A program made the translations under genes and the position numbers. From the NCBI GenBank assembly GCA_028709805.1, contig JAQUTL010000012.1:1-64000 (forward strand): a stretch of 64,000 nt of DNA. Direction: 5' to 3'. Of this stretch, positions 12,497 through 15,723 are shown piece after piece (positions within the stretch are counted from its first letter, which is position 1; every line of letters starts with the position of its first letter). This DNA is from Victivallaceae bacterium. GTDB taxonomy: Bacteria > Verrucomicrobiota > Lentisphaeria > Victivallales > Victivallaceae. The notes below the pieces were generated by a model. It ran no database searches. It was not told the DNA's origin and worked only from the letters and a program-made list of their open reading frames with translations.

Positions 12497-12745
12497 TTAC
12501 GCCAGCGGCGCAACGGCAACCATGCGGCGGACTTTGTCAAACTCAACTTTGCCGTCAATCAGCGCGAAGATGGTAAAATCGCGGCCGAGGCCCACGTTCT
12601 TGCCCGGACGGAAACGGGTTCCGCGCTGCCGGATAATGATGCTGCCGGCGGTGACCGTCTCTCCGCTGAACGCCTTGACGCCAAGAAATTTCGGGTTACT
12701 GTCACGACCGTTACGACTGCTCGACTGACCTTTTTTATGTGCCAT
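12497..12745 (-). CDS. rpmA: 50S ribosomal protein bL27
   Basis: 82 residues beginning [20 protein letters not shown], followed by [22 protein letters not shown]. All typical bL27 features are present. The N-terminus starts directly with the mature-type MAHKKG and has no Firmicutes-like cleavable extension. The ribosome binding site is AAGGA. Unusually rplU (bL21) is not upstream; rpmA is the first gene after its own promoter. Confidence 0.98.
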
Positions 12746-12798
12746 TTTACAGATTCCTTATGTTAATTTTAATTTTTCCCGTAATATTCAGACCCTTT

Positions 12799-12826
12799 AA
12801 TATAATGTGCCGTCATCAAATATCAA
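12799..12826 (-). promoter_or_regulatory. Sigma70 promoter of rpmA
   Basis: Minus strand: TTGATA (12821-12826), 16-base spacer, TATATT (12799-12804), 53 bases before the ATG. Confidence 0.75.
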
Positions 12827-12858
12827 GTATCCCGTTCCAAATATTTGTAAAAATTACC

Positions 12859-12914
12859 ACTGTGCCACAAAAGCACAGTCACAGCACCTCATCGTTGTGC
12901 CATTCCGACACAAC
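12859..12914 (+). promoter_or_regulatory. Two 21-bp palindromes upstream of the sigma54-type promoter
   Basis: Site 1 is ACTGTGC-N7-GCACAGT (12859-12879), a perfect dyad. Site 2 is GTTGTG-N9-CACAAC (12894-12914), also perfect. Both are 21 bp long and share TGTGCCA in the left arm and CACA in the right arm. Their centres are 35 bp apart and lie about 65-100 bp before the predicted transcription start, as for enhancer sites of sigma54 activators. Confidence 0.6.
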
Positions 12915-12942
12915 AATAGTTCCGGCACGCCCGTTCTTTTGC

Positions 12943-12958
12943 TGGCACGGTATTTGCT
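12943..12958 (+). promoter_or_regulatory. Sigma54-type (-24/-12) promoter of clpB
   Basis: TGGCACGGTATTTGCT matches the sigma54 consensus TGGCAC-N5-TTGCW at every defined base, with GG and GC in the correct register. It gives a leader of about 170 bases before the clpB ATG. A hairpin GAGACG / CGTCTC (13100-13116) lies just before the Shine-Dalgarno sequence. Confidence 0.7.
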
Positions 12959-13137
12959 TGTCTGTAATCAAAAACAAACGCACTCCGCTGAACGCGACGG
13001 TCGGACGGCTGAAAACGCCGCAACGCCGCGCCGGACGGAGCTGGACGTGAAAACGCTTTCCGAACGGAGTTTACCTTAAATCAGTGAACACCGGAGCGGG
13101 AGACGCCGGACGTCTCAGAGGCAAAAGGAGAAAAAAT

Positions 13138-15723
13138 ATGAACCTTGAAAAACTTACCAACCGCTCGCGTGAGGCCTTGATGGCCGCCCAGACCGTGGCA
13201 CAGGAAAACGGGAACCCCGAATTGAACAACCTCCATCTGCTCAGCGCGCTGCTGGATCAGAACGACGGACTGGCCGGCGCGCTGCTGCAGCGTGCCGGTA
13301 TTCCGCTGAGCCGGATCGCCGGAAAGGTGGAGACCGCGATCAACGCGCTGCCGAAGGCGTCGGGGGGAACCGGTCAGCTTTATCAGTCGCGCGAATTCAG
13401 CGCGGTGCTGAACGCGGCGGCGCAGACCGCCGAGAAGATGCACGACGAATATATCAGCGTGGAACATTTTATTCTGGCGCTTGCAGAATCGCAGAGCAAG
13501 GCCGGCGAAATTCTGCGCGAGGCCGGTCTGGATCAGGCTACGGTGCTCAAGGCGCTTCAGTCGGTGCGCGGCAACCAGCGTGTGACCAGCGCCGACCCGG
13601 AGTCCACCTTTGAAGCGCTGGAAAAATACGGCCGCGACCTGACCAAACTCGCAGCGCAGGACAAGCTCGACCCGGTCATCGGCCGCGACGAGGAGATCCG
13701 CCGCGTCATTCAGATACTTTCACGCCGGACGAAAAACAACCCGGTGCTGATCGGCGAACCCGGCGTGGGCAAAACCGCCATCGTCGAGGGGCTGGCGCGC
13801 CGTATTTTCCGCGGCGACGTCCCGGAGGGGCTGAAAAACCGCAAACTGGTGGCGCTGGACATGGGGGCGCTGATCGCCGGAGCGAAATACCGCGGCGAAT
13901 TCGAGGAGCGGCTGAAAGCCGTTCTTAAAGAGGTCACGTCGAGCGACGGAAACATCATTCTGTTCATCGACGAGCTGCACACCGTGGTCGGAGCCGGCGC
14001 ATCGGAAGGTTCGATGGACGCCGGAAATCTGCTGAAGCCGCTTCTGGCGCGGGGCGAACTCCACTGCATCGGCGCGACCACGCTGGACGAATACCGCAAA
14101 TATATTGAAAAGGACGCGGCGCTCGAACGCCGGTTCCAGTCGGTTCTGGTTCCGCCGCCCTCGGTGGAGGACACCATAAGCATTCTGCGCGGACTGAAGG
14201 AGCGTTACGAAATACATCACGGCATCAAACTGCGCGACTCGGCGCTGGTGGCCGCCGCGGTGCTGTCGGACAAATACATCTCCGACCGCTTCCTGCCCGA
14301 CAAGGCCATCGACCTGGTGGACGAAGCCGCCGCGACGCTCCGCACCGAAATCGACTCCTCCCCGGTGGAGATCGACGAACTCCAGCGCCGCTCCATGCAG
14401 CTTGAAATCGAGATCGCCGGTCTTAAAAAGGAAAAGGACCCCGCCTCGCTCAAACGGCTGGAGGAGCTGGAAAAAGAATTGTCCGAACTTAAAGAAAAGT
14501 CCACCGCGCTGCGCGCCAGATGGGACAACGAGAAAAAGGCCATCGAAGACCTCCGCAACCTGCGCGCCTCGCTTGAGCTTGCCAAACAGCAACTGGACAA
14601 GGCCGAACGCAATTACGACCTTGAAAAGGCCGCCGAACTGCGCCACGGCACCATTCCGCGGCTTGAAGAGCAGATAAAAAAGGCAGAGGAGGCAATCAAG
14701 GCCTCCGGCGAATCGAGACTGCTCAAGGAGGAGGTGGACGAGGAGGACATCGCCGCCATCGTCAGCCGCTGGACCCACATCCCGGTCAGCAAACTGGTGC
14801 AGAGCGAAAAGCTGAAACTGCTCAATCTGGCCGACCACCTGCACCTGCGCGTGATCGGACAGGACGAGGCCGTCTCCGCCGTGGCCGACGCGGTGCTGCG
14901 GGCGCGCTCCGGCTTGAAAGACCCGAACCGCCCGATCGCTTCGTTCATCTTTCTGGGGCCGACCGGCGTGGGCAAAACCGAGCTGGCGCGGGCGCTGGCC
15001 GAAGAATTGTTCGACGATGAACGGGCGATCATCCGCATCGACATGTCCGAATACATGGAAAAGTTCAGCGTGTCGCGGCTGATCGGCGCGCCTCCGGGAT
15101 ACGTCGGCTATGATGAAGGCGGCCAGCTGACCGAAGCGGTCCGCCGCCGCCCCTACTCGGTGATCTTGTTCGACGAAATAGAAAAGGCTCATCACGACGT
15201 GTTCAACATCCTGCTTCAGGTGCTGGACGACGGCCGGATAACCGACTCTCAGGGGCGTACGGTGAACTTCAAGAACACCATCATCATCATGACCAGCAAC
15301 CTCGGCAGTCAGCAGATACTGGCCCACCCGGACGATCCGGAAAAGGTCAAAGCGGATGTGACGCAGGAACTGCGCACGCACTTCCGCCCCGAGTTCCTGA
15401 ACCGGGTCGACGAAACGCTGATCTTCCGGGCGCTGACCAAAGACGACATGATCCGGATTCTTGACATTCAGCTTGCCCACTTCTCCGGCCGACTCGCCGA
15501 CCGCGGCGTGAAGCTGGAGCTGACCCGCGAGGCCAAAGAACTGCTGACCGGCGACGGTTATGAGCCGGCCTACGGCGCCAGACCACTGAAACGGGCCATT
15601 GTGCGCGAACTTGAGACGCCGGTCTCCCGACTGCTGATCGCGGGGGAACTGCCGGAGGGCAGTTTGCTGAAGGTCGGCGTCAAAGACGGCAAACTGGACT
15701 TCGACTGCGTGAAGCCGGAGTAG
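13138..15723 (+). CDS. clpB: ATP-dependent disaggregase ClpB
   Basis: 861 residues, full length. The N-domain (1-145, two Clp repeats) is followed by AAA-1 with Walker A GEPGVGKT near residue 206, the coiled-coil middle domain (about 400-530, rich in E/K/L), AAA-2 with Walker A GPTGVGKT near 607, sensor 2 [10 protein letters not shown], and a short acidic tail. There is no ClpP-binding tripeptide. It rescues aggregated proteins with DnaK. The ATG at 13138 has AAGGAG 7 bases upstream; the ORF extension to 13084 is not used. Transcription seems to come from the sigma54-type promoter rather than a visible sigma32- or HrcA/CIRCE-type signal. Confidence 0.97.

Follow-up and report, generated by a model that had tools for sequence, protein, structure and literature searches.

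How is the disaggregase gene clpB controlled in a bacterium in which it sits, judging from the sequence, behind a sigma54-type promoter? Textbook control of bacterial chaperones runs through RpoH, HrcA/CIRCE or CtsR, and an earlier note on this locus proposed a dedicated enhancer-binding protein that couples protein damage to sigma54. We followed this proposal through the window (the whole stretch of 64,000 nucleotides of contig JAQUTL010000012.1, to which positions refer unless another contig is named), the remainder of the Victivallaceae source genome (47 contigs, 2.55 Mb, 93% complete) and the genomes of relatives.

The clpB promoter

The clpB gene (13138–15723, plus strand) begins with an ATG at 13138 behind a Shine-Dalgarno-like AAGGAGA (13125–13131, plus strand) and encodes an 861-residue protein that scores above the curated cut-off of the TIGR03346 ClpB model, carries the Pfam domains Clp_N, AAA and ClpB_D2-small, and shares at most 62% identity with its matches from named bacteria. 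A divergent open reading frame, read as rpmA (bL27), lies upstream on the minus strand (12497–12745). The element TGGCACGGTATTTGCT (12943–12958, plus strand) matches the consensus TGGCAC-N5-TTGCW, with GG at −24 and GC at −12, without a single mismatch, just as the earlier note had read it, and is the sole site in the 64-kb window with fewer than two mismatches to that consensus. Its position before clpB is kept in relatives, and it places the predicted transcription start at about 12969. Pattern-based scanning of the 2.55-Mb genome, which may miss weaker sigma54 promoters, returned three perfect matches, located at clpB, gltB and dnaK. RpoN, whose presence the proposal presupposed, is encoded in the genome (PF04552 match, E 5.6e-52).

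A crude scan for one type of sigma70-like promoter gave no match on the plus strand of 12700–13140, and the two sigma70-like sites found on the minus strand near clpB are compatible with an rpmA promoter. Comparison of the clpB leader with Rfam revealed nothing above the gathering threshold, and an RNA element was discarded as a candidate, the sub-threshold matches being on the opposite strand and beginning before or inside rpmA.

The upstream dyads and a conserved operator motif

Two candidate upstream operators precede the promoter on the plus strand. Dyad 1 (12859–12879) has the form ACTGTGC-N7-GCACAGT with a 17-bp core at 12861–12877, TGTGCCACAAAAGCACA, scoring 8.4–10.1 bits; dyad 2 (12894–12914) has the form GTTGTG-N9-CACAAC with a 17-bp core at 12896–12912, TGTGCCATTCCGACACA, scoring 16.5 bits. 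They lie about 100 and 65 bp before the predicted start, in agreement with the earlier distances of 65–100 bp. The description of both as perfect 21-bp dyads holds for their arms but not for their centres, of 7 and 9 bases, which are non-palindromic. Likewise, the shared TGTGCCA and CACA are real, since TGTGCCA-N6-CACA occurs exactly at both dyads and has no further copy in the genome, but they do not mark a regulon: allowing up to one mismatch, the genome holds 12 matches against 22 for the reversed control. Because such matches are no commoner than the control, the literal string is not the regulon motif, and it was dropped as a marker.

De novo motif search in the 150 bp before the dnaK promoters of relatives yielded TGTGaCAnanTGtCgCA, a 17-bp inverted repeat, and the wider pattern learned from relatives is TGNGNCA-N3-TGNCNCA. 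The first matrix was seeded by a consensus read by eye, and a repeat from random seeds converged on the same motif. With the dnaK-derived motif, dyad 2 is the top site of the 64-kb window, where shuffled windows contain 0.1 sites above 16 bits, while dyad 1 is a weak match (8.4 bits). Among the operators, the distance to the −24 box is 39–141 bp and sites are often paired. Apparently, the proposed upstream sites at clpB are members of an operator family conserved in relatives. It is hardly credible that dyad 1 serves as a transcription terminator of the minus strand instead of as an operator: a scan did list it as a hairpin of terminator type, followed by T-rich sequence, but no minus-strand gene terminates there, rpmA starts at 12745 and reads away, and the dyad 1 core has a second copy in dyad 2 and tandem counterparts in relatives. 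With no gene to match it, the terminator was rejected.

Conservation in relatives and absence of HrcA

Against dinucleotide-shuffle expectations, which overstate independence because relatives share ancestry, 22 of 30 order-level relatives have a sigma54-like element within the 300 bp before clpB (0.3 expected), and 28 of 30 have one within the 200 bp before dnaK (0.2 expected). Elsewhere in the phylum, 34 of 49 dnaK loci carry such an element upstream (0.4 expected), and the control region 400–600 bp upstream of the same genes gave 1/49. Among named bacteria of many other groups, 3/77 have such an element before clpB, with 0.6 expected. The operator learned at dnaK was recovered at 14 of 22 held-out clpB loci, the window included (0.2 expected), and at 37 of 49 dnaK loci elsewhere in the phylum (0.5 expected; control 1/49). 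Position and sequence of the operators vary among relatives while the pattern is kept. The other 8 of the 22 clpB loci with a sigma54 element have no detectable operator, several of them being downstream of hsp20 genes, and where hsp20 genes precede clpB in relatives a sigma54-like element also stands before the first hsp20. At L055, L058–L061, L067, L074 and L075 two hsp20 genes precede clpB, often with a second sigma54-like element before clpB itself.

Three clpB loci outside the order deserve mention. An Opitutae locus (L153) has an operator-like site, CGCCACACAATGGCGCA, at 15.4 bits, and a Planctomycetota locus (L104) has an operator-like TGCGCCAATTTGGCAGC at 10.8 bits together with a perfect −24/−12 element; the system may thus extend further across the PVC group. 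At a Brachyspira locus (L123) a sigma54-like element with one mismatch stands 126 bp ahead of clpB and no operator accompanies it, possibly a chance match or an independent case.

The classical repressor system was also searched for. Searches of 61 genomes returned no HrcA, while the positive control genomes were detected, and no CIRCE element precedes dnaK in the 59 genomes sampled, every region having at least 6 of 18 mismatches. On these grounds HrcA/CIRCE was rejected as the controller.

Predicted members of the regulon

Among 25 sigma54-like sites checked in the source genome, operator and sigma54 element occur together only at clpB, dnaK and moxR. The dnaK locus has a perfect −24/−12 element and the same operator as clpB, and dnaK is the first gene of an uninterrupted dnaK-groES-groEL block; among the 51 relatives in which both genes were detected, 50 have groES immediately after dnaK. 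In the source genome neither a sigma70-like promoter nor a terminator was found in the dnaK-groES gap, and the crude scan for one promoter type found no sigma70-like match around the dnaK promoter. The third site (C35:15630–15693, L011/L256) precedes genes that by inspection encode a moxR-type AAA protein followed by a DUF58-like protein; there the chaperone operator TGTGTCGAAATGACACA (17.6 bits) accompanies TGGCATGGAAAATGCT, and this operon is probably a third member. The regulon thus appears to comprise dnaK-groES-groEL, clpB, the hsp20 genes of relatives and probably the moxR operon.

The remaining perfect promoter, that of gltB, faces a divergent glnA promoter with one mismatch (C15:15348–15525, L015/L027), glnA encoding by inspection a type III glutamine synthetase. 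The chaperone operator is absent from the glnA/gltB intergenic region, which contains a distinct dyad, AAGTGTGA-N10-TCACACTT, perhaps the site of one of the NifA-like pair described below.

A two-component regulator as candidate activator

The search for enhancer-binding regulators called for by the earlier note turned up three true ones in the source genome: two NifA-like GAF-AAA-HTH proteins and one REC-AAA-HTH protein encoded beside a PAS histidine kinase. The GAF proteins, on contigs C13 (L044) and C23 (L045), fall just under the NifA equivalog cut-off. The REC-AAA-HTH protein is an NtrC-type response regulator (C37:58561–59907) with REC, Sigma54_activat and HTH_8 (residues 411–447) domains, all above Pfam cut-offs, and the gene just upstream encodes the kinase, with PAS, HisKA and HATPase_c domains and no receiver domain. 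The best NCBIfam models for the pair are AtoS and AtoC, below cut-off; the regulator scores 469 bits against an AtoC cut-off of 714 and 414 bits against an NtrC cut-off of 559.

An orthologue of the regulator is present in 57 of 61 genomes and in 35 of the 36 high-quality ones, orthologues (at least 50% identity) being separated from paralogues (at most 46%); the one high-quality genome without it, G004, is in 1,030 contigs. In six genomes that are 94–98% complete (G003, G015, G018, G034, G036 and G043) no enhancer-binding protein other than the regulator reaches E ≤ 1e-60, and all six retain the dnaK sigma54 promoter and operator. The recognition helix, NRTxAAxKLGISRRTLHRKL, is nearly invariant within the order, which is what an unchanging operator would predict, and differs from those of both GAF proteins. 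Of the 13 genomes readable at this place, 10 have the operator in front of the kinase-regulator operon, where about 0.13 would be expected, mostly 30–50 bp before the kinase gene. The source genome has it as TGTGTCAAATTGACACT (17.3 bits), with no sigma54 element there. An operator close before its own operon is the usual layout of a self-repressing operon. Where the operator lies 30–50 bp before the kinase gene, a protein on it could obstruct a sigma70 promoter, and the regulator probably represses its own operon.

Taken together, its co-occurrence with the dnaK promoter as sole enhancer-binding protein, its conserved recognition helix and the operator at its own operon make the REC-AAA-HTH protein the likely activator of clpB and dnaK. 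The earlier expectation of a dedicated activator was right in that converging evidence allows one enhancer-binding protein to be named, and wrong in its reach, for the predicted regulon is chaperone-wide and not dedicated to clpB.

In two genomes, G018 (L368) and G027 (L369), the regulator gene has neither a kinase gene beside it nor a copy of the operator, which means that its partner is not in every case this kinase; clpB and dnaK still have operators and sigma54-like promoters in both. Inspection of the kinase revealed no obvious membrane segment and no recognised misfolded-protein sensor, and direct sensing and indirect sensing through redox, energy or chaperone occupancy are equally likely.

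A model for chaperone control and its alternatives

The genomes contain the promoters and operators, their phylum-wide conservation, the kinase-regulator pair and the operator at its own operon, and lack HrcA; from this record we consider it highly probable that clpB and dnaK-groES-groEL are run by the sigma54 promoter, the operators and the kinase-regulator pair. In such a model, sigma54-RNA polymerase would transcribe clpB from 12943–12958. The PAS-HisKA-HATPase kinase would phosphorylate the NtrC-family regulator (REC, AAA+ and Fis-type HTH), which would oligomerise on the tandem 17-bp operators at 12861–12877 and 12896–12912, contact the sigma54 polymerase by looping and open the promoter through ATP hydrolysis. 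Oligomerisation, looping and ATP-driven remodelling of sigma54 polymerase are standard for NtrC-family proteins. The same pair, with the same architecture, would activate dnaK-groES-groEL, as well as the hsp20 genes in relatives and probably the moxR-DUF58 operon in the source genome, while the operator beside the promoter of the kinase-regulator operon would provide self-control, probably repression. The output, ClpB with DnaK-GroES-GroEL, would form a coherent disaggregation and refolding set. Binding, activation, the direction of self-control and the protein-stress stimulus are what we infer; protein damage as the cue is read from the target genes only.

One alternative concerns the cue: clpB and dnaK could belong to a broad sigma54 regulon that answers to energy, redox, growth phase or another signal, making the chaperone link incidental. 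The moxR-DUF58 operon with its same operator and promoter type would fit such a regulon, the kinase carries a PAS domain, and the related sigma54 regulon of Chlamydia is tied to development (PMC7482065); yet the members known so far are mostly dnaK-groESL, clpB and hsp20, and HrcA is missing, so that we regard this account as unlikely, though worth keeping in view. It is improbable that clpB is expressed mainly from a sigma70 or unrecognised promoter with the sigma54 element playing a minor part. ClpB and GroEL are needed in growth, purely activator-dependent promoters are unusual for essential genes, and hrcA-grpE of Chlamydia has tandem sigma66-sigma54 promoters (PMC8762339), but the scan, crude and limited to one promoter type, gave no plus-strand sigma70-like match before clpB or around the dnaK promoter.

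A real sigma54 promoter might instead be served by one of the GAF proteins, C13 or C23, which would link clpB and dnaK to nitrogen or redox. Both proteins are encoded in the source genome, and glnA/gltB likewise has sigma54 promoters. However, the six genomes named above keep the dnaK promoter and operator with no GAF enhancer-binding protein at E ≤ 1e-60, the GAF recognition helices differ from the conserved one, and the chaperone operator is missing at glnA/gltB. We judge this very unlikely, and co-occurrence and helix differences removed the GAF proteins as candidate activators of clpB. The kinase-regulator pair remains our preferred explanation. Its broadest form, which we offer tentatively and with more doubt than conviction, is that one self-controlled two-component sigma54 switch sensing proteotoxic stress is the primary control of essential chaperones, groESL included, throughout the phylum, in place of HrcA and, in part of the group, without a sigma70 fallback.

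Comparison with known systems

A link between chaperones and sigma54 is already known from Chlamydia and Myxococcus and has been predicted in Bacteroidota and Planctomycetota, according to the relevant passages of PMC7482065, PMC9109919 and PMC12316311. Relative to the open-access literature, beside which a further report may exist, what would be new is that the control covers the core chaperones, acts through a defined operator and a named, self-controlled regulator, and goes with the loss of HrcA. Throughout the phylum, expression of an essential folding operon and of the disaggregase appears to require a phosphorelay and an activator driven by ATP; the system offers one operator, one kinase and one regulator as a testable set, and makes concrete the question of how misfolded proteins are sensed in cells without HrcA.

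The HrcA/CIRCE, RpoH and CtsR systems control the same genes (dnaK, groESL and clpB) in other bacteria, but do so by repression or a sigma70-type factor, whereas HrcA and CIRCE are absent here. In Myxococcus, as summarised in a passage of PMC9109919 citing Ueki and Inouye 2002, the HsfB/HsfA phosphorelay acts on lonD. HsfA, as portrayed there, is similarly an NtrC-like response regulator activating a heat-shock gene; that system has a hybrid kinase, a protease target and secondary-metabolite genes, in contrast to the kinase without receiver and the core-chaperone targets found here. A 2025 survey predicted GroEL, GroES, DnaK, GrpE, IbpA and ATP-dependent proteases behind sigma54 promoters in Bacteroidota and Planctomycetota (PMC12316311); its chaperone passage names neither the source phylum nor an operator or regulator, while here both are assigned.

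In Chlamydia, CtcB/CtcC (AtoS/AtoC) and sigma54 act on hrcA-grpE (PMC7482065, PMC8762339), so that there, as proposed here, a kinase and an NtrC-type AAA+ regulator drive sigma54 transcription, also of an operon of the DnaK system; the best NCBIfam models for the present pair are again AtoS and AtoC. CtcC has no domain for DNA binding (PMC7482065), whereas the present regulator has HTH_8 (411–447) and a conserved operator, and Chlamydia retains HrcA and tandem sigma66 promoters, whereas the genomes studied here lack HrcA and have dnaK-groESL and clpB as candidates for direct sigma54 control. This comparison suggests that the chlamydial hrcA-grpE sigma54 promoter may be left over from an older arrangement that was once shared.
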